Origin: Liolophura sinensis
Lineage: Eukaryota; Mollusca; Polyplacophora; Chitonida; Chitonidae
Length of the DNA stretch: 64,000 bases
Direction: 5' to 3'
Assembly (NCBI RefSeq): GCF_032854445.1
Contig: NC_088296.1
Location: 18,281,485 to 18,345,484, forward strand
A model generated the notes under the pieces. It saw nothing but the letters and a program-made list of their open reading frames with translations. It did not search any database and had not been told where the DNA came from. Below are positions 16,307-57,400 of this stretch, piece after piece; positions within the stretch are counted from its first letter, which is position 1; each line of letters opens with the position of its first letter. Made by a program: the position numbers and the translations under genes.

Positions 16307-16804
16307 CGAGACCGACGGTCAGGCACGGTGTGTGGAGATGAGTAGCATTTACAGATGAGAAGCCGTACATATTGCGGAGAAAAGGAAAACAGCCCGCAGT
16401 TTTGTGGAAGCTAAAATCGGGAAACTTTGCAGGCGGAAATCATTGGCATATTTTTACACCCGGCAACTGTCTAGCCTCCGACTGGAAAGGTTGTTGTTTG
16501 TTCACGCTGTGTTGTTTTAGCGAAAGTCACGAAGCAGCGTCAAGGCTTCGAAACCTTAAAGAGTGTTGTAAAGAGATGCGAACGCCGAGCAGTTGCAATG
16601 GAAACGAATTAATCTTTGACTTTCCGAGGTATCCATTATTTTAGTAATGTCAATCTGAACGTAGACATTTTTGAAGACGTTTTGGAGTTCCTGTGAGGAG
16701 AAATAACACCAAAACTTGAAAACTGTCAAGCAGGAAAACAAATTTTTAGGAAAAGTAGAACATTCCTGTTTTTGAATAATATTTGGAAGGTGCTAAAAAT
16801 CAAT

Positions 16805-17456
16805 ATGGCAACCAAGAAATTTTTTTGCGATGGAATTTCAGGATTTTGTAAGAAGACAATTCCAAAATCGTTCCTCCAGTCCAGCACAGTGCTCAATGGG
16901 CAACGCAAATCGCAGTTTTCTGATGTGACTTTGTTCAAGTCAGCGTTCCTACGTTCCACCAATAGGCATGGTAACGGCGGAATGCTGTCGACGAAGAGTG
17001 GAAACTTTTATCCGTACAATACGTTCGCGACCAAAACGGACAGGATCGAGCTGGGCAGGGGGCTTTTGGCGTTGGGAAGAAAAAATCGGCTAACGTGCCT
17101 TTCTGAGAATTCTTTCCCCATCCGGCTTGACATTTTTTCCACTTCTGAACGCAGATACATCAGCGAAGGTCAAGGTTTCGTGTTCCCCCGGAAGCAAAAG
17201 TGGTGGTGCTACTTCGGGGGGGTTGTGCTCGTACTTGGTGTAGGGGCTTGGGCCCTCTTCCAATACAAGAAAATAAGCCTCCAGAGCCGAGGCGTCAGTT
17301 TGTTTTATATTCCACATCTTCCCTTCCAAGTGATGTACCCTTTTGGGAGTTACAAAGGCATCGCCATCAACACGACAATGTTAAACAGCTTAGAGCAGGT
17401 GGAAAACTTCGAGGTCAGGAAGGACGATATCTTTGTGGTCAGCTTTCCAAGGTCAG
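16805..17456 (+). CDS. Sulfotransferase exon 1 (N-terminal extension, TM segment, PAPS loop start)
   Basis: This exon encodes residues 1-217 plus the first base of Gly218. The first 60 or so residues carry many Lys, Arg, Ser and Thr and few acids. A hydrophobic stretch WWCYFGGVVLVLGVGAWALF begins at 17201, with PRKQK before it and QYKK after it. The SULT domain then starts with the typical SYKGI and DDIFVVSFPRSG. The donor is GTGAGTG at 17457. Two further copies of the donor region follow at 17494 and 17531. Reading past the first donor meets TGA at 17462-17464. Confidence 0.9.
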
Positions 17457-20400
17457 GTGAGTGAATTTACAGTGTAGAACTTTATGAGGTCAGGTGAGTG
17501 AATTTACAACGTAGAACTTTATGAGGTCAGGTGGGTAAATTTATGATGTAAAACTTTATGGTATAGAAAGACTGAAGCGTAGAGTGTAATAAGCAGAGCA
17601 GCGGCAACAGTGTGATAGTTCGCAAATTGTTACCGGTAAGATCCGGTTTCTTGTCTGTTTATCTCAGTTCATGTAAGTGCTGAAATATTGACAACATTAG
17701 ACGTTCCCAAGGTCCATAGCTAGGGCAGGATTAGATACACGACATGCAGTGATATTAGATGTAATTTAATAGACTTCACTGGTCTAGAATTACCGGAAAT
17801 GTTGCGTTATTGTCACGTTTAATAAACAATAATGTGCAAAACATTCGCTCCTTTCTAGAAACAGGCTCCTTTCTATTCACATGACCTGCAATATTTCGGT
17901 AATAAAATTCATGGCGTACTAAAACCAGGTCCGCTGTTAATCTGTGTCAAAGGATAAGATGTTAACAATTTCATCGACGGAAAGACTGACAGACAGATAG
18001 ACAGACAGACGAGACAGACTTGGAGACAGAGCGTCGTGTAGAGATGTTTGTTGACACAGAAAACAACGACTTATACAGCAGCTGATTGCAGTTAAGAACT
18101 TGTCTGTCTCACCCAAAACTACTTCCTTGTGTGTGCATTGTACTGGACATTCATGTTATTGCTTTGTAAGAAGACCAATCTGCTACTTTTTAAGTGCACA
18201 AAAAGGCCGGCCTTAAGTCGCGCATAAAAGCACTTCATTCTTTCCCGTGACGCTCCACTTCGTGCGACTAGATCGAAAGCCATTCATCGCCTCATGTTTT
18301 CACCTTGTTCTCGCCACCATATGGCTGGAATATTGCCGATGTGGCGTTAAACCATAATAATTTATTAATTCATTCATTTATTCATCCCAAATCCTGTGCC
18401 GTTTTTATCCTAATTGCTTTAAACTGATAACTACATGTTGTAACTTAAAGTGCATGAAAGAGCCAAAGCATACTACGACAGCTCGGGGCTGTATTTTTTC
18501 GGCATAGAGTTGTCAAATAGCTGCGCATGCCCGGTGCACATTGTGGCTCAGATATGCAGGATTCAGTGGACCTTAATGTGAAACCAGATATCAGATTTAC
18601 GTTAATTTTTACACATGAAATAAAGAGAGTAGGTCATGTGTTCATTCAAATAGTCACAGGCGACGATTTTGCTTTCGGCAAATGGTACCGTCTTAACAAA
18701 GCTATACCTCTTGTGGCAGGGCGACTCCATGCCGCTAAAGTGCTGCCGCTACTAAAGTATTATGAAGAAGACACCAGACAAGACACCGAACCCAGTCACA
18801 TTATACCGACATCGGGCTAACTAGTGGTGTTTCCTTGTACTAGCGTCACCAATTACTATTTTTAAAGTCTGATATGATGACCCAGGTTAGTCCAAGGTCT
18901 CCCGACTTCGAAGTCGTCGCTCTAACCACAAGGCAACCGAAGCGGTCCGTTACCTTGCTAAATGCGCATGACACAACGATAGCTTATTAAAATGGGCCAT
19001 TGGATTGGACTCGCTCTCCGGGTCAAAAGCGGCCGGGGCGTATTACGGAGCAACGGCATTATGGCAACACATGGTGAAGAGATACCCATCATGGTACATG
19101 GGGGGCCTCTGTGGCCGAGTGGATTAGACCGCCAGCACGACGCAATGTTCCAGGAGTCTCCTATAAATGGGGCCGCTGTGAGTTCAAGTCCAGCTCATGC
19201 TGGCTTCCTCTCCCACCGTACGTGGGAAGGTATGTCAGCAACCTACGGAAGGTAGTGGGCTCAGCCCAGTTTCCTCTCATCATAATGCTGGCGGCCGTTG
19301 TATAAGTGAAATATTCCTGAATACGGCGTGAAACACCAATCAACTAACTTAATAAAATAAACTATGGTAAATGCGCTTGACTCTGTGCGCCCTTGGAAGT
19401 CTACATGGGACTGATCGAAGTGATTTTGATTTAGTTTATGGGAAGCTCGAATCAAATAAAAGTCTTCTTTTCTTACTCATGGAACATTTTGTAGTTGATA
19501 TCTAAGTTTTACTGCCTTTGTAGCGACTGGAAAACGCTGAGAAACTGTATTTTTGTAATATTAGGATGTAATGCACTCCCCATTAAGAATAAAAATAAAG
19601 CGTTTCACGTAGCCGAATTAATGTGAAACGTTGGGGTTGATTTCTCGCTCTTAGTGTAACGTTAACGTAACGACGTACCAGTGCCTGTTGTATTGGGTTA
19701 CTAAAGTATATAGTCACGCGCACTAACGTTACCAAGAACGTCTTGTGAAATATATACTTTCTGGCAGCATCCTGAAATAATGTCAGGGGATACTAGGTTT
19801 CTACCCCAAACAAGTAAACTAACAAAACAAAATATTATCCTAAGACCGCAATCCTCATCTGTATCTGTAAAAGTGAAAGCTTATTCAGCACGGCGTTTAA
19901 CATGGATAGAAAAGAAATGAAGATACAAATTTTATAGTACATGCCATTTTGGTTTATGCTGCAGGTACCACGTGGACACAGGAACTCGTCTACATGGTAG
20001 CCAATGATGCTGACGTAGAGAAGGCCAGCTCCATGAACCTGGAGGCGCGCTTCCCGTACCTGGAAGACCATGAGAATAGCCCAGAGAACCTGAAAACCGC
20101 CGAGTCTCCGAGATTCATCAAATCTCATTTGCCCTACAGATTGTTACCAAAAGAAATAGAGACGAAGAAGCCCAAGGTAAGTGCGCATGCGCATTTCAAG
20201 ATGCTCCTATATTTCCAGACGTAAAACATCGACATTTTAAGTTTATGAATGGCGGAAATCGGAGGTAGAGCAGAACACCACCCTTTGCAAAATGTTTGAT
20301 AAACCTCCTGACTTAGGACATCGCAGCCGATTTAGCTGGAGCCGTAAGGTCCAACACATGATCTACTTTATGCATATTTTACGTCAGTGAACGGAAATGT

Positions 20401-32400: not shown

Positions 32401-35400
32401 GGAGATTTAAGAATGAATAGGATTTTTTTATATTCACGTGAATTAGAATTTGTTTGAGAACTTTCGTTTAAATCTGACAAAAAGTTCTTAAAAGTCACCA
32501 CAGAAAGAAATGTTATTCGTTTGTTTACTGAATTGGTGTTTAACTTCACACTCAAAAATAGTTACCTTATCAAAAGGTTAATGGGTCGTACAGACTGAGT
32601 TCGGAGAAAACCACCGCCCTCTGGCAGACATCTAACTATGAATAACCTACTGATTTATAGACAAAACAGCTGACGACTAAAGCCACAAAACATATGAAGC
32701 GTGACAACAACAACAACAGTACATTTAGTCCTAGACATAAACAAGACAGGTAAACAAATGTTTACAAAACATATGAAGCGTGACAACAACAACAACAGTA
32801 CATTTAGTCCTAGACATAAACAAGACAGGTAAACAAATGTTGTTTTCTCCTTTCAGTTAATTAGAAATAATGGCAAAAAATGGTGCATAATAATGTACAT
32901 TGTAGCTTGAAACAAAATGTTATGTGTTGACTGTGCTCTATGTCGCGTAGTGAAAAGATTTGCACAAAGCAGTACACCATTGTACTTTAAGACATAGTAC
33001 TTCATGGTGTTGAGACAAGAATTAAATTATCTTTTGAAAGAATGCAAATCTTGCCTAGCTGAACGGTAAACAGTTACAGTAAACGGTGCAGTAAATGATA
33101 ACACTGAGACGGATAATATTATAGACAAAACAGCTGATGACCAAATTCACAAAACATATGAAGTGTGACAACAAGAACAAAAGTGCATTTAGCCCCGGAC
33201 ACAAACAAGGCACGGTAAACAAATGTTTTTTGCCTGTTTTCATTTCTATTAAATACAAATAATGGGAAAAAATGGCGCATAATTATGTAAATTATAGCTA
33301 AAAATAATATTGTATGTGTTGACCCTGCTCTATGTAGCGTAGTGAAAAGACTTGTACAAAGCAGTACACGATTGTACTTCATAGTGGTGTAACAAGCATT
33401 AAATTATCTTTTGAAAGAATGTAAATCTTGCCTAGCTGAACGGTAAACAGTTACAGTAAACAGTGCAGTAAATGATAACACTGAGACGGACAATAAGCAA
33501 GCGTGTTTTATGAAGAGTAATTCATCTTTCTGTAATGTTGTATGATCAGTAAATCATCGTAATGTAATGAACAGTGAACAACTCTGCTAAATTGGCAGTA
33601 TACAGTCGTACTGTTATGAACAGTGAACAACTGTTCTAAATTAGCTGAAAACAATCGTACTGTAATGGACAGAGGACAACTCTGTTGTATGAAAAGTAGA
33701 TGGTCGAACTGTAATGAACAGTGAACAACTCTGCTAAATTAGCTATAAACTATGTAGTATATTTTCTGTTTCAGATAACTTATGTCATGCGGAACCGAAA
33801 AGACGTGTAGTTTCTGTTTCAGATAATTTTTGTCATGCGGAACCTAAAAGACGTGTATTTTTTGTTTCAGATAATTTACGTCATGCGGAACCCAAAGGAC
33901 ATGGTCGTGTCGTTTTATCACCTGTGGCTAAAACTGAGGGCCCGATATCGGGGTCAGTTCTCCGATTTCTGTGAACTTTTTCTTCAAGACAACTGTAAGT
34001 ATAACAGTACATAACCGATCAGCTGTGTGTATATTTACATGTACGCAATGTGAGGCCATCTTTTTGCTTTATATGGGTTATAAGCTTATATTGGACTCCA
34101 CAAGGCTATTCATAAGAATGGAAATTGGTCAAAATTAAGTTGCAAGCTGCAGACCAACTCAGGCTTTTACGACTGTGGCTTTAAGTCAGACGATTTGTAT
34201 GGGCGTGCCCCTAGCAAAATGTGATGGTTTATTCTGGGTTGTCCGGTCTCCTCCATCCATAAACTTAGACACGGTTGTAAAGAATGAAAAACATTGATGA
34301 AAACCGCGTGCACCTGTCAGATAAATAAGTAAATGAATGAGTAAGTAACTAAGTAAATGAATAAGTAAGTAAATGAGTAATAAGTGAGTAATAACTAAAT
34401 AAGTAAGTAAATAAATAAGTAAATATGTAGGGGAGTAAGTAAACAAGTAAGTGAATGAGTAAATATGTAACGAAATAAATAAATAAGTAGATAAAGAAAT
34501 CTTCACACCGTTAGTCTGTAAGGCCGGAACACAACAGAAATCTCACCGTTCCGTATATGATTTTCAAACGTAGGAATCAAATTGTGGTTTCTGTGTCAAC
34601 TTGATAACACAGTATATGCCTATATTAGGGATCAAGCACATGTTCTGACGGCATGTGAGGGCAATATAAGCAACATACGCAAAGATACGAAAACCTTTGC
34701 TGTTAATTACGCACCATCGCCCTGCAACTTTGATGTGTTCAACATATTTCTTAATGTGTTTACTGATGTGTTTACCGATGTGTTGACGGTATTTATTGAT
34801 GTGTTTACTGGCGTTTTTAATGATGTGTTTACTGCTGCGTTGATTGGCGTGTGTACTGAAGTGTTTACTGGCATGTTTACTGATGTGTGTACTGAAGTGT
34901 TTACTGGCATGTTTACTGATGTGTTTACTGGCATGTTTACTGATGTGTTTACTGATGTGTTTACTGGTGTGTTTCACCAATGTGTTCTAGGTATTCACTG
35001 TTCACTGACGTTTTGTTTTTCAGTGATGTTTTCTCCTTGGACGGAACACGTAAAGGAATTCTGGGAACGACGAGACGAGGATAACATACTGTTTTTGAAG
35101 TACGAAGATTTACACATGGTACGTTGATTGCTATTATGACTTTTTTGATTGGTTGATTGGATTATTATAAAGTAATCCGTAATTCAGTTAAAATAATTCG
35201 GCTCGGATTATAATCTTGAAAAAATTCCACACGACTTTAAGCCACAGAAAAAAGACTGATGATAAGAAACAACTGAAATAACTGTCAGTGATTAAAATTA
35301 AGATTAAAATAAAATTGTTTTTTTTTTCGTGCTTTTCAGAATTTGTCGCACGAAGTAGAAAGGATTTCAAAGTTCCTGAACAAGCCTCTTACACCTGAGC

Positions 35401-36939
35401 AGGTGGTGACAATTGTGGATCACTGCTCGTTTGACAGCATGAAGAAAAACGACAAGGTGAACTACAGATGGTGGGATGAACGGGGAATTACGGCTAACAT
35501 CGGTACCTCCTTCATCAGGAAAGGTCAGAGCTCAACTTCACTCCCTCTGATCTTACCCGGGGGCCTCTGTGGCGTGCTAGTGCAGCGCAATGACCAAAGA
35601 GCCTGCCACAAATGCGGTCGTTGTGAGTTCAAATCCAGCTCATGGTTGGCTTCTTCTCCGGATCGTTAGTGGGAAGGTCTGACGGCAACCAGCGGATGGT
35701 AGTGGGTTTTCCCCGGTCTCTACCCGGTTTGCTCCCACAACAATGCTGGCCGCCGTCGTGTTAGTGGAATATTCTTGAGTACGGCATAAAACACCAATCA
35801 AATAAATAAATGAACAGATGCTGATCTGGCTCTGTTTAAATCATTTGGTTTATTGATTATTGTTAAACGCCACGCTGAAGAATATTTCATTTATGCGACG
35901 CCGGTCAATGTGACTGGTATTATAGAGAAAACCAAGGTCCTCGGAGTAAAACCAATGGCCCTTGGCAGTTATCTGGCAAACTTTCGGACGTCCAAGACTC
36001 ACCCACAAACCGAGCTTAGTGTGTGTGCTGAGGAAAACAATGATCTCTATTGACCTTCATGAATGACGACGTGAACAATTCATCGAGCACTGTCGACCGC
36101 TTGTTGCCTCCAAGGCCCCGGATCATGAGAGTCATAATTTTCTGTGGCGTTGCGAACATGCGCAGTCCGAGATTGGGATTGCACGTACACCACGTCTGCT
36201 TAATCGATCGAGAGATCATAACTTCGTGGCAATGGCGCTAAAACTTTCCTTGTTTTTAGGAGGAAAGAGGTGGGAGATTATGGGTATTTCGTCTTCATTA
36301 CCAGACATTTAGTATTCAGAATTCCTGCCTCCATTTTTTAAGAGAAAACATTTCTTTATTTAAGCGCTTAGCATACTTTTGCAAAAAAAAAAAAAAAACC
36401 ACAAAATCGTAACGGACTGGCACTAAGTAGATCTAAGCGGAGTACTACTTTCCTCTTAATAGTAGGCCTAATACGTTGCAGGTTCTATATATCTATGCTC
36501 TACATCTTTAATTATATTGTATTCCTACATTAACCCAGATTCTGCCGGTGAACTAAGCATTCCGCAAGCCTGGCCCCTTTGCTTTGTTTTAATGTGATTG
36601 TGTGTTAAATGTGATGACGACACATTCATTCACATTTAGTTGATCCCTTTGCATTGTTTTAATGTGATTGTATGTTAAACGTGATGACAATACAGCATTT
36701 AGAGTACGTGTACAAGTAATTCTAGACTAATAGCAAATATATAGACGGACTTGTTGAGGCACGAGATGTCCCCAGTTCGTTTAATGGTGTCGAAAACATT
36801 CCTAACACTTTCAATCTCGCCTTTCACAGGTCGTGTTGGGGACTGGAAGAACTTTTTCACGCCAGAGCTCGATCAGCGCATGTCAGAGAAGGTGGAGCGC
36901 CCTTTAGCGAACATGGGAATTGAAGTGAAGTATGAATGA
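16805..36939 (+). CDS. Membrane-anchored SULT-family sulfotransferase (six coding exons)
   Basis: The exons are 16805-17456, 19965-20176, 33871-33994, 35024-35118, 35340-35523 and 36830-36939. Phases agree at every junction, giving 458 codons plus stop. The family transfers sulfate from PAPS to hydroxyl or amine groups of small molecules. Visible motifs: 5'-phosphosulfate loop PRSGTTW (about residues 215-221, with Arg where SULTs usually have Lys), the catalytic His of KSH (about 272), the 3'-phosphate-binding RNPKD with its downstream Ser (294-302), and RKGxxGDWK (421-429). Human cytosolic SULTs are about 295 residues. This protein has about 165 extra N-terminal residues, basic and Ser/Thr-rich, followed by a hydrophobic segment (133-152) flanked by basic residues. 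I infer a membrane anchor, perhaps with a mitochondrial presequence. The start is the first plausible ATG, followed by MATKKFF; the frame stays open upstream to at least about 16740 without a better ATG. The substrate cannot be told from sequence. Confidence 0.9.
17457..17570 (+). repeat. Triplicated exon-1 splice donor (37-bp period)
   Basis: AGGTCAGGTGAGTGAATTTA occurs at the true donor (17457) and again with the donor at 17494. A third, diverged copy has its donor at 17531 (GTGGGTAA). Each copy ends with AACTTTATG. Confidence 0.95.
17571..18230. other. Sulfotransferase intron 1, unique part
   Basis: No exon or mobile element is recognised. A short AGACAGAC run lies at 17986-18015. Confidence 0.6.
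18290..18388 (+). mobile_element. SINE-C fragment
   Basis: ACCATATGGCTGGAATATTG, then CCGATGTGGCGTTAAACC and an AT-rich tail. This 3' end resembles SINEs common in marine molluscs (recalled). Confidence 0.7.
18725..18950 (-). mobile_element. SINE-B, inverted and diverged
   Basis: GAACCCAGTCACATTATACC is the reverse complement of the SINE-B core. It is followed by TTTTTAAAGTCTGATATGA and a mutated tRNA-like head near GGCAACCGAAGCGGT. Confidence 0.8.
19100..19361 (+). mobile_element. SINE-A, full length (intron 1)
   Basis: Head GGCCTCTGTGGCCGAGTGGA, B box GAGTTCAAGTCCAGC and tail ending AACACCAATCAACTAAC. Confidence 0.93.
19965..20176 (+). CDS. Sulfotransferase exon 2 (TTW to KKPK)
   Basis: The acceptor is TGCTGCAG ending at 19964 and the donor is GTAAGTGC at 20177. 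The exon completes Gly218 and encodes residues 219-288, including TTWTQELVY, RFPYLE and FIKSHLPY, which carries the catalytic histidine (codon near 20128). The exon ends in phase 0. Confidence 0.93.
20230..21480. other. Sulfotransferase intron 2, unique part
   Basis: No exon or mobile element is recognised. Confidence 0.55.
21500..23085. repeat. 94-bp satellite (dimer of two related halves of about 47 bp)
   Basis: The two halves are AACCGAACAGAACATGCAA with ATGGCTAGGTAATA, and AACCGTATAGGACATGCAG with TGGCGGGCTAATACTG. The two-half structure is regular from about 21740 to 22870. Outside that, single half-units diverge. The array lies wholly inside sulfotransferase intron 2. Confidence 0.95.
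23090..24430. other. Sulfotransferase intron 2, unique part
   Basis: No coding exon is recognised. Short tandem GATACAGTTAATTTA repeats occur at 23190-23240. Confidence 0.55.
24440..25172. repeat. 13-bp minisatellite ACCATCAAATTAY
   Basis: Over 50 tandem copies of ACCATCAAATTAC or ACCATCAAATTAT. The two forms are interspersed without obvious higher order. Confidence 0.97.
25656..25904 (-). mobile_element. SINE-A, full length (intron 2)
   Basis: Starts with TTTATTTATTTATG on the + strand, passes CGCCGTACTCAAGACTATTT and CATTGGTGAGAGACTCCTCA and ends in the tRNA-like head. Confidence 0.93.
26813..26888 (-). mobile_element. SINE-A 3' fragment
   Basis: CGCCGTATTCAAGAATATTT and ACCAGCATTATGATGGGAAG. 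Confidence 0.8.
26890..28705. other. Sulfotransferase intron 2, unique part
   Basis: No exon recognised. A short (CCAA)n-like tract lies at 27616-27660. The ORF at 27647-27907 (-) has no recognised similarity. Confidence 0.5.
28711..28950 (-). mobile_element. SINE-A, nearly full length
   Basis: TTTATTTATTTATTTGATGA then GCTGTATTCAAGAATATTTC, through CGCATTGGTGGGAGGTTCCT. The head end is mutated. Confidence 0.9.
28955..30690. other. Sulfotransferase intron 2, unique part
   Basis: No exon or mobile element is recognised. A poly-A run lies at 29450-29468. Confidence 0.5.
30790..30990 (+). mobile_element. SINE-like element with AAAT tail
   Basis: GGGGTTGAACCAAGATCCCT resembles a B box. The 3' end AAATTCTTGAGTATATAGTG, then TTAAACACTAGTGAAATAAA and AAATAAAT repeats, is related to the SINE-A tail but distinct. 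Confidence 0.55.
31525..31652 (-). mobile_element. SINE-A fragment with internal deletion
   Basis: CACGATGGTGGGAAGAAACC, then GGGAAACCCACGACCGTCCG and CTTCCCACGTACGG. The segment with the ATTCAAGAATATTT block is missing. Confidence 0.8.
31655..32650. other. Sulfotransferase intron 2, unique part
   Basis: No exon recognised. 32524-32640 may be a very old SINE-A relative on the - strand (TTGGTGTTTAACTTCACACT). Confidence 0.5.
32656..33496. repeat. Tandem duplication of about 464 bp with a nested 79-bp duplication
   Basis: TATAGACAAAACAGCTGA occurs at 32656 and 33120, and both units end in CACTGAGACGGA. Inside the first unit ACAAAACATATGAAGCGTGA is repeated 79 bp apart (32685 and 32764). The second unit lacks this inner repeat. 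Confidence 0.93.
33540..33770. repeat. 49-bp tandem repeat (four copies)
   Basis: ATGAACAGTGAACAACT begins at 33567 and 33616, in diverged form at 33665, and again at 33714, so the period is 49 bp. Confidence 0.88.
33763..33890 (+). repeat. Triplicated exon-3 acceptor and exon start (48-bp period)
   Basis: TTTCAG followed by ATAAYTTATGTCATGCGGAA or a close variant occurs at 33775, 33823 and 33871. The first copy meets TAG at 33808-33810. The second copy is open through the third, so its acceptor would add 16 in-frame residues. Confidence 0.95.
33871..33994 (+). CDS. Sulfotransferase exon 3 (PAPS 3'-phosphate site)
   Basis: The acceptor is TTTGTTTCAG ending at 33870 and the donor is GTAAGTAT at 33995. 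The exon begins in phase 0 with IIYVMRNPKDMVVSFYHLW, which holds the Arg and Ser that bind the 3'-phosphate of PAPS. It ends one base into the next codon. Two decayed copies of this exon's start and acceptor lie directly upstream at 33775 and 33823. Confidence 0.93.
34318..34500. repeat. Tetranucleotide-rich tract (TAAG, TAAA, TGAG mixtures)
   Basis: Runs of AGTAAGTAAATGAATGAG type. The - strand ORF over it is a by-product. Confidence 0.93.
34736..34977. repeat. 12-bp minisatellite GATGTGTTTACT / GGCATGTTTACT
   Basis: About 20 copies in intron 3, ending some 45 bp before the exon-4 acceptor. The unit is a multiple of three, so the + strand stays open and in frame with exon 4. Confidence 0.95.
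35024..35118 (+). CDS. Sulfotransferase exon 4 (WTEHVKEFWE)
   Basis: The acceptor is TTGTTTTTCAG ending at 35023 and the donor is GTACGTTG at 35119. The product MFSPWTEHVKEFWERRDED then NILFLKYEDLHM matches the SULT segment that normally reads xxxWxxHVxxWW and LYEDM. The upstream intron is open in the same frame from 34582 because its 12-bp repeat is a multiple of three. Confidence 0.92.
35340..35523 (+). CDS. Sulfotransferase exon 5 (HCSF, MKKN, RKG)
   Basis: The acceptor is GTGCTTTTCAG ending at 35339 and the donor is GTCAGAGC at 35524. The exon encodes residues 362-422 and the first base of Gly423, including LSHEVERISKFL, VDHCSFDSMKKN and FIRKG. A full-length SINE begins only about 35 bp after the donor. 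Confidence 0.93.
35559..35813 (+). mobile_element. SINE-A, full length (intron 5)
   Basis: GGGGGCCTCTGTGGCGTGCT through GAGTTCAAATCCAGCTCATG to CACCAATCAAATAAATAAAT. It lies 35 bp downstream of the exon-5 donor. Part of the tRNA-like head is deleted. Confidence 0.93.
35845..36000 (-). mobile_element. Decayed SINE-A relative
   Basis: TTGTTAAACGCCACGCTGAA, then GAATATTTCATTTATGCGAC, is a mutated tail in reverse. The rest is not alignable by eye. Confidence 0.5.
36573..36710. repeat. Tandem duplication of about 72 bp (intron 5)
   Basis: CCTTTGCWTTGTTTTAATGT, then GATTGTRTGTTAAAYGTGAT, occurs twice. Confidence 0.88.
36830..36939 (+). CDS. Sulfotransferase exon 6 (C-terminus)
   Basis: The acceptor is CTTTCACAG ending at 36829. 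The exon completes Gly423 and encodes RVGDWKNFFTPELDQRM through the stop codon TGA at 36937. GDWK closes the PAPS-binding RKGxxGDWK motif, and KNFFTPELD occupies the place of the SULT dimerisation motif. Confidence 0.93.
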
Positions 36940-54493: not shown

Positions 54494-57400
54494 AATGGTA
54501 GTCAAAAATAAGAATCAACTTATCCCGTGACTTATCACCATGACAACATGTCGGTTTTGTATGTGTCACCATTGTTATTCGAATCAACATTTTCTGTTGC
54601 AGTGTCGTCACGCCTACTGATGGCACCTTCGGCAATACCAACTTCATGGTCTTGATTTCATCAGAGGGCAACATCAGGTGGCTCTACCCTATCGTCATCC
54701 AGAGCCGTTGCAGAGTCGACATGGGGTTATTCCCCTATGACACGCAGTACTGCGTGCACGAATTTGGCTCGTGGTCGTATAGTGGCCATCATATAGACAT
54801 CTATCCCAAAAATCCTTTCGGCGACGCCGCGAACTACATTAGCAACGGCGAATGGGATCTTCTTGATCTACCGTGTCGGAAGAAAGTGACGACGTACGGT
54901 TGTTGCCCAGAGCCTTACCCCAGCGTCGTTTACACATACGTTCTGCAAAGGCGTCCTACTTTTTACCTTTTCAACTTGGCCCTGCCCTGCTTCCTCATCA
55001 CGTGTGTCAATCTTTTATCCTTTCTACTTCCGGTAGAATCGGGCGAAAAGATCGCCTTAAGCATCACCACTCTCCTTACTGTGGTTCTTTTCTTGAGGAT
55101 GATCGCTGATTCCATTCCACCACAAGGCAACGTCATCCCCATTATACGTAAGTCCCGAAAGATCGTCTGCGCTCTCTTTTAAATATACGCTAGATGTGTA
55201 TACTTACATTACCATGAACTTTTATTCCCGTTTGTAATAATTTCTTAACGCCGGCCAATGCTTAAATACTGTTATCTTTAAGTTTTGTTTGAAAATAAAA
55301 CACATAGCTGGAAAAAAGAATATTGAAGTATTGTTCACAAGACGTCAAAGAGCTTATTTTTTAAATTTATTTCATTGGTGTTTACGCCGTACTTAAGAAT
55401 ATTTCACTTTGTACGACGACGGCCAGCATTATGGTGGGAGGAAACCGGGCAGAGCCAGGAGGAAACCCACGACCATCCGCAGGATGCTGGCAGACCTTCC
55501 CACGTATGGTTGGTTAGGAAGCCAGCATGAGCTGCATTTTATCACACATAATCGTAGTGTCACGCCACGTGACTAAGTGTTGTTGCGTCACGTGAGTTTC
55601 CACCTGGGTGAAAACTTAACAAATGTCACAAAAAGTCAAAAAAAAAAAAAAAAAAAGGAGACTCATCACTTTTGTAAACTCATCAGAATGTAATAAATTT
55701 GTAGTTAGAGTGTTGATCGCAAATTGTAAATAAATTTGTACAAAGAATGAGTTTGAATTAAGAAATAGTGTGCAGTATACTGGTCATGAACATAATCATA
55801 ATTTCCCTGTTTGATTGCAGAGTGGTATTTTGGAGGATGCATGGTACTGCTCTGCTTATCTACAGCAGTAGCTATCCTTGTGTACCGGATACACTTCAAA
55901 GGCGAATACGGCACACCATTTCCAGTTTGGGCCAGACGGATATTATACGGACCCCTCGGACGGAAGTTGGGCGCATGTCCAGCCGTCAATCAAGTAGAAG
56001 AAAATAAGGTCTGTATGAACAGAGAATGTCGCTGAGGCCCAAATGCAACTTCCGATTACATTTTTCACTTGTACGGTCAGTTTTATAGGGGGGGGGGGGG
56101 AGGAAGCCGGAGTGCCCGGCGTACACCACCGACATTTGACAAGTGACTGTCGATCTTTAACGACCATACATGTATAAGCGTTGTCGATCGCTTATTATCA
56201 ACAGTGCCCAGTGAGCGCCGGGAGTGGTGGGGGAGATTTGATTGGTGTTTTACTCCGTAGGGCCTACTTAAAAATATTTCACTTGTACAACGGCGTCCAG
56301 CACTACCCTGTCCTAATAACTAAAAGACAATCGCACCTGAGCGCGAAATTACGGACCGCTCAATCCAAGATGTACATGTGTTTTCCAAGTTCAACCATGA
56401 TGATGGAAGAAGTTTTTTTGTAAAGGTCACGTGAGGAATAGTGCCTATCTTGTCTCCTCTCCGCTTTTTAGTGTTTATTTATTTATTTACATGGTGTTTT
56501 ACGCTGTACTCAAGAAAATTTCACTTATACGACGGCGGCCAGCATTATGGTGGGAGGAAACCGGGCAGAGCCCGGGGGAATCCCACGACGATACGCAGGT
56601 TCCGCTTTTTAGTGGCAGTTGTATAAATTTATTTGCGTTTAACGACTTAACATCTCGGAAATGTTTCACTTCTAAGACAACAGTAACGGAATATAGGTGG
56701 AGGCAAACTTCAGCTCTTTTCTTCAGTTTTCTGGCAAACTTCCTCACTTACAGCCGCTGCTGAACAAACCAGGCTTGATTTGAACCTACTACCTCATTTA
56801 CTGATCGGCCCGTGGGACCGGTTTTGATCTATAACGTTTAGTGACTACCATTTGTTATCTACCAGTTTGTCGTTCTGGCCTGTACGTCAGACTTGAAACA
56901 GTTCGTCAGTCAATCGCCTAAAGTCTAAGGTTTACCCTGAGCGTTATAGTCTTTTATAACCCATAAAAATGCAAAAAAGAAGTAAAAATGAGTGTGTTAA
57001 ACAGAGAATAAGTGTGTCAGACAGTAAATGACTGAGTCAGACAGTAAATGACTGGGTCAGACAGTCAGACAGTAAATGACTGGGTCAGACAGTCAGACAA
57101 TAAATAACTGAGTCAGACAGTAAATGACTGAGTCAGAGAGTCAGACAGTAAATGGCTGAGGTCAGACAGTCAAACAGTAAATGCCTGAGTCAGACAGTAA
57201 ATGCCTGAGTCAGACAGTCAGACAGTAAATGGCTGAGTCGGACAGTCAGCCAGTAAATGAATGAGTCAGACAGTCAGACAGTAAATGACTGAGTCAGACA
57301 GTCAGACAGTACATGACTGAGTCAGACAGTACATGAATGTGTCAGATAGTAAATGAGTGTGTCGGATAGTAAATAAGCGTGTCAGACAGTAAAGAGGTGT

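Follow-up and report, generated by a model that had tools for sequence, protein, structure and literature searches.

Tripled splice sites in a sulfotransferase gene of Liolophura sinensis resemble the mirages of lancelet genes

The acceptor of exon 3 in a predicted sulfotransferase gene of Liolophura sinensis lies in a short tandem array that carries it, together with the start of the exon, three times over. We read this array as a mirage-type minisatellite, in which the exon-proximal acceptor at 33871 would still be the one that makes the enzyme and the upstream copies would be intronic, and we place the probability of this reading at roughly 80%. Coordinates given without a contig name refer to the window, that is, the whole stretch of 64,000 nucleotides that was analysed. 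Exon 1 has a tripled donor as well. Both types of boundary are affected in one gene, the 5' splice site of exon 1 and the 3' splice site of exon 3, and at both junctions the additional copies lie on the intron side.

The gene occupies the + strand of the window and has six exons; all five introns are of the GT-AG type and the frame is open throughout. Exon 1 (16805-17456) has an uncertain start codon, with in-frame ATGs at 16805, 16982, 17333 and 17378, and is followed by exon 2 (19965-20176), exon 3 (33871-33994, beginning IIYVMRNPKDMVVSFYHLW), exon 4 (35024-35118), exon 5 (35340-35523) and exon 6 (36830-36939, including the stop codon). The predicted protein matches Sulfotransfer_1 (PF00685) with 258.8 bits over profile positions 1-253 of 255, which is the whole length, and its best relatives among the solved structures of the PDB are SULT1C2 and SULT4A1. 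A paralogous sulfotransferase lies head to head with it at C2:18266890-18271587 on the minus strand, with an exon 3 that is 68% identical and no repeated acceptor within 150 bases upstream of that exon. Comparison with this neighbouring opposite-strand paralog (C2:18.27 Mb) over 201 codons of exons 2-5, with 16 codons left out where the match edges were translated from intron, gave pN 0.175 and pS 0.794; since pS is near saturation, these values show constraint but not how strong it is. The predicted gene is an intact sulfotransferase gene. Its exon 1 lies inside a long open frame (16697-17456) whose N-terminus is basic and which includes a hydrophobic segment resembling a membrane anchor (WWCYFGGVVLVLGVGAWALFQY); we take this to be unexpected for a cytosolic-type sulfotransferase. 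Elsewhere in the window, an open frame at 54544-55182 carries the Cys-loop neurotransmitter receptor domains PF02931 and PF02932.

Intron 2 is closed by the acceptor array, which Tandem Repeats Finder reports at 33763-33900 with a period of 48, 2.9 copies, 90% matches and a score of 220. Each 48-bp unit holds TTTCAG, an exon-like start and the motif VMRN.KD, so that TTTCAG is followed by exon-like sequence starting at 33775, 33823 and 33871, an exact 48-bp period. Unit 1 (33763-33810, + strand) has its acceptor ending at 33774, and its exon-like part translates as ITYVMRNRKDV before an in-frame TAG at 33808-33810, a stop after 11 codons. Unit 2 (33811-33858, + strand) has its acceptor ending at 33822 and an open, in-frame exon-like part from 33823; the translation, IIFVMRNLKDVYFLFQ, runs directly into the IIYVMRNPKD of exon 3, and use of this acceptor would add 16 residues. 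Unit 3, in the extent given by Tandem Repeats Finder (33859-33900, + strand), contains the authentic acceptor, ending at 33870, and the first 30 bases of exon 3. An exon start at 33871 agrees with those of the paralogs, several of which begin an exon at the matching position of the PF00685 profile, 92-93.

The two inner units are closer to each other than to the exon unit, in an array of three units only: there are 4 differences in 48 positions between units 1 and 2, and 9 in 48 between either of them and unit 3. Three of these nine differences occupy the final three positions, at the duplication joint, where unit 3 continues into the exon. Copies 1 and 2 both read KDV, as do four of six paralogs (L031, L034, L035 and L036), the other two having KDL (L032) and KDI (L033), whereas exon 3 reads KDM, which is found in none of the six. 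The copies are therefore probably older than the change in the exon, and copies 1 and 2 appear to keep the earlier exon state. A query of 301 bases around the array has one full-length match in the assembly, which is itself, so the locus is single-copy there. The sole other match covers 40 bases about 150 bases upstream, within a neighbouring array; this is a separate 49-bp minisatellite with a different unit (33547-33750, + strand), directly upstream of the acceptor array. Intron 2 also contains an exact 79-bp tandem duplication at 32685-32841 and, by eye, a longer diverged direct repeat within 32600-33500, in which about 32600-33100 corresponds to 33120-33500.

At the other affected junction, a 37-bp unit is repeated at 17450-17560 (+ strand) and places the GTG of the exon 1 donor at 17457, 17494 and 17531. 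Read-through beyond the first of these donors meets a TGA immediately. Much of this anatomy had been described in the initial annotation, and the description holds: the TTTCAG triplet and its spacing are borne out by the sequence and by Tandem Repeats Finder, the stop in copy 1 and the open copy 2 repeating the motif as RNLKD by translation, the gene type by the PF00685 score and the tripled donor by its 37-bp period, and the choice of 33871 as true exon start is supported by the exon starts of the paralogs.

We propose that a segment of about 48 bp, reaching from the last bases of intron 2 into the beginning of exon 3, would have been duplicated in tandem toward the intron, and then once more. 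The exon-proximal copy at 33871 would have stayed the acceptor that yields the enzyme, leaving copy 1 as an intronic, potentially poisonous acceptor that leads to a premature stop and copy 2 as an intronic, cryptic acceptor in frame. The same process of duplication, again toward the intron side, may have acted at the exon 1 donor. Mirages are minisatellite-like tandem duplications of exon-intron boundaries, 5' or 3', described in lancelet genes (PMC3087553), and the mRNAs of those genes are reported to be normally spliced (PMC3087553, PMC3902484). Given the shared anatomy and these normal mRNAs, the extra copies are most likely by-products of duplication, with splicing at 33871. We infer that the array arose by tandem duplication, that 33871 is predominantly used and that 33823 is used little or not at all.

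The three acceptors were scored with a matrix built from 29 acceptors of the host genome, of which 28 are distinct (the acceptor of window exon 2 was counted twice); 19 came through a motif-and-pyrimidine filter and 10 from elsewhere, and a set so mixed and roughly compiled makes the matrix only a rough yardstick. Copy 1 scored 15.0 and outscored all 29 compiled acceptors, copy 3 scored 12.6 (23 of 29) and copy 2 scored 11.1 (20 of 29). None of the 664 AG sites of intron 2 between 20300 and 33700 reach copy 1 or copy 3, and 0.45% reach copy 2. Branch-point-like matches were scored over seven positions against a consensus: copy 1 has the best of the three, 5/7 at -26 and -38, copy 3 has 4/7 at -24, located inside copy 2, and copy 2 has 4/7 only at -41 and -45, the poorest at the usual distance. 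If 3' splice sites are chosen by scanning, the most upstream acceptor should be favoured. With copy 1 also scoring highest, use of 33871 needs an explanation, for example through exon enhancers or through a branch point that lies in copy 2. The sequence alone leaves the preference for 33871 unexplained, and it argues least for copy 2.

We also compared motifs genome-wide, three in all (one donor and two acceptor). The 5' splice-site consensus CAGGTGAGT occurs in triples with gaps of 20-45 bases in 644 matches (243 + 401), against 25 (10 + 15) for the same motif read backward; with 10,097 single sites against 2,731 for the control, this amounts to 7.0 times as many triple matches per single site, figures that count matches rather than arrays because matches within one array are not independent. 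Neither acceptor motif behaves in this way. TTTGCAGG gave a ratio of 0.69 (144 triples against 97; 23,383 single sites against 10,794) and TGTTTCAG a ratio of 0.98 (839 against 507; 50,447 against 29,780), and with neither motif enriched we reject the idea that acceptor arrays form a class across the genome. Accordingly, nothing at the acceptor points to more than background formation of minisatellites. Two of four TTTGCAGG loci were read at the sequence level; in one (L074) the array enters a short open frame, and the other (L076) showed nothing.

Among the donor matches listed, all on contig C1 below 54 Mb, we distinguished 15 arrays by our own grouping, and six of these begin where a coding exon with a homology match ends. 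One of them is L067 (C1:4.18 Mb), where, from base 1387 of the sense strand, the exon end and donor of a Mot1/BTAF1-like helicase are expanded into an array with over 35 copies of a 48-bp unit. The other five start at exon ends of 2-oxoglutarate dehydrogenase (L088), an MRP/ABCC-type transporter (L082), an iron-hydrogenase-like protein (L079), an SPT3 homolog (L084) and alpha-L-fucosidase (L078), the last with a match (E 0.0003) that falls short of the curated cut-off. One further array (L087) has a weak deoxyribose-phosphate aldolase match in NCBIfam (E 0.0022, far below cut-off) and no match in Pfam or the PDB. In two (L080 and L086) an open frame ends at the donor, with no match in Pfam, the PDB or NCBIfam. 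At the remaining six (L068, L070/L072, L073, L081, L083 and L085) no junction was found at the array start; L068 has a long open frame for which a Pfam search gave no match, and L073 has an exon-like donor about 100 bases ahead of the array. Overall, peptides from array starts, which possibly carry a few intron-derived residues at their own start, had matches for 3 of 10 queries in Pfam, 5 of 8 in the PDB and 1 of 4 (weak) in NCBIfam.

The background against which these junctions must be seen is rich in repeats. Arrays of period 20-120 make up 16.5% of the window; in the sequence flanking 30 sulfotransferase loci their share is 10.4%, and in that flanking 22 cytochrome P450 loci it is 3.4%. 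One of the 30 sulfotransferase loci has a junction array: at L012 (C7:4166272) an exon end and donor lie in a 35-bp array of 17.3 copies that runs into the intron (L012:924-1536). These 30 include exon 2 of the window gene itself (L027), and in several (L001-L004) the match is a long open frame with no obvious junction, so the junctions sampled number fewer than 60. No junction array was found at the 22 P450 loci, of which three (L046, L056 and L059) have short repeats of period 12-18 near the match edge. The repeat of L059 is intronic, about 20 bases past the donor, that of L046 is likewise intronic and past the donor, and that of L056, which is weak (period 13 bp, 73% matches), extends over the acceptor without repeating the AG; none of the three is a junction array. 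A separate observation in this genome is a run of eight tandem haemocyanin domains at C8:37880506-37891931 (PF14830). The domain is of molluscan type, so the run indicates a mollusc, and a number of eight units would suggest a gastropod.

Several other explanations may be weighed against the mirage-type reading. The initial annotation had pointed to a longer isoform; in this reading 33823 would serve as an alternative 3' splice site in some tissues and give a sulfotransferase whose 3'-phosphate-binding strand is repeated in 16 additional residues. In its favour, 48 is divisible by three, copy 2 contains no stop codon, the acceptor of copy 2 beats 20 of the 29 compiled sites, and the longer predicted protein still reaches 257.9 bits with Sulfotransfer_1, split into two stretches. 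Against it, neither of the other two acceptors scores as low, and the best branch-like matches of copy 2 are 41 and 45 bases away on the upstream side. Within its first 11 exon-like codons, copy 2 departs from exon 3 at four, of which three change the amino acid and one is silent, and in RNLKD it has lost the proline of RNPKD that the closest paralog keeps. Among the matches listed, moreover, the period is divisible by three in 5 of the 15 donor arrays, which is the chance expectation and gives no sign that copies are read in frame, and the lancelet analogues are reported to splice normally (PMC3087553, PMC3902484). We regard such an isoform as unlikely, and the claim for it as unsupported. 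No better placed, in our estimate, is a role in regulated unproductive splicing, by which use of 33775 under some conditions would produce a truncated transcript targeted for decay and so tune the level of the enzyme, the extra donors of exon 1 acting alike. The stop after 11 codons that this would exploit, which has a counterpart in the TGA just past the first exon 1 donor, is equally expected of an unused copy, and the normal splicing reported for lancelet mirages (PMC3087553, PMC3902484) again speaks against it, although copy 1 does outscore every compiled acceptor and its branch-like match is the best of the three at the usual distance.

That the copies are an artefact of assembly or sequencing is very improbable. 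Minisatellites are prone to misassembly, and one lancelet mirage was mis-assembled in a draft genome (PMC3087553), but the units here differ by 8-19%, copies 1 and 2 hold the apparently older KDV codon, and several unrelated junction arrays stand in the same assembly. Chance deserves more attention, as a minority possibility of some substance: in a genome so rich in arrays, these might happen to cover two of the ten junctions of one gene for reasons unrelated to splicing. When all arrays of period 20-120 are counted, the probability of at least two in ten is 0.49; it drops to 0.047 with arrays of up to 250 bp and to 0.024 with arrays of up to 150 bp, all of them figures calculated after the fact. 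The absence of over-representation of acceptor motifs in arrays fits with chance, while donor motifs are about 7-fold over-represented and the exon 1 array belongs to this donor class. Chance and the mirage-type reading differ only in the cause of the duplication, and both can hold. The repeat itself is beyond chance; its overlap with the junctions is less remarkable. It is doubtful that a tripled donor together with a tripled acceptor is unusual, as had been suggested, for a genome in which junction-spanning tandem arrays recur, and the earlier interpretation as a whole is partly supported.

Taken more widely, the data incline us, if only slightly, to think that mirages extend beyond lancelets and that in this genome 5' rather than 3' splice sites are hot spots at which tandem arrays start, placing exon-donor junctions of ordinary genes in arrays whose copies, as many as dozens, the spliceosome would have to pass over. 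The acceptor triplet would then be the rarer 3' form, and with the same slight inclination we count 2-oxoglutarate dehydrogenase, the MRP-type transporter, the Mot1/BTAF1-like helicase and the SPT3 homolog among the ordinary genes concerned. The class and its donor bias in this genome are more interesting than the single locus. Genes with near-identical splice sites in series are natural tests of how the spliceosome chooses its site, and in a genome rich in them the effects of proximity, exon enhancers and branch-point use could be read from ordinary RNA data. Enrichment confined to donors raises the question of why 5' splice sites would initiate tandem duplication. Mirages have also been proposed, in the lancelet globin paper, as a route to new introns (PMC3087553).

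Other known systems share single features with the window gene. NAGNAG and other close tandem acceptors also offer two or more usable acceptors in succession, but NAGNAG sites are 3 nt apart, whereas those of the window gene are separated by 48 nt through a duplicated acceptor and exon start, and by this spacing the array is not a NAGNAG acceptor. Tandem exon duplication, as in mutually exclusive exons, likewise repeats a coding segment behind its own acceptor; here the repeat takes in only about the first 36 bases of the exon and copies 1 and 2 lack a donor at their end, so the array does not belong to this kind either. Intron gain by internal tandem duplication has in common a duplication that carries splice signals, but the window gene has no new intron, and several paralogs start the exon at the same profile position. 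The closest likeness is to the lancelet mirages, which are described in Adh, the globins BflGb6 and BflGb9, troponin C and PGBD5, with unit numbers that differ between haplotypes and homogenised inner units (PMC3087553, PMC3902484). There, as in the window, a short tandem unit spans the exon-intron boundary and many units carry splice signals; in lancelets the inner units are more alike than the boundary unit, where the three units here give 4/48 against 9/48, and BflGb6 is an acceptor-side mirage like the array of exon 3 (PMC3087553, PMC3902484). Unlike the lancelet cases, the present arrays belong to a genome with mollusc-type haemocyanin, have 48-bp and 37-bp units and affect two junctions of one gene. 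Among open-licence papers in PubMed Central we found no description of mirages outside lancelets, which does not prove that none exists. With units that cross the predicted exon-intron boundary and retain their AG or GT splice signals, the window arrays match lancelet mirages in anatomy, and the locus is an ordinary member of this little-known class.
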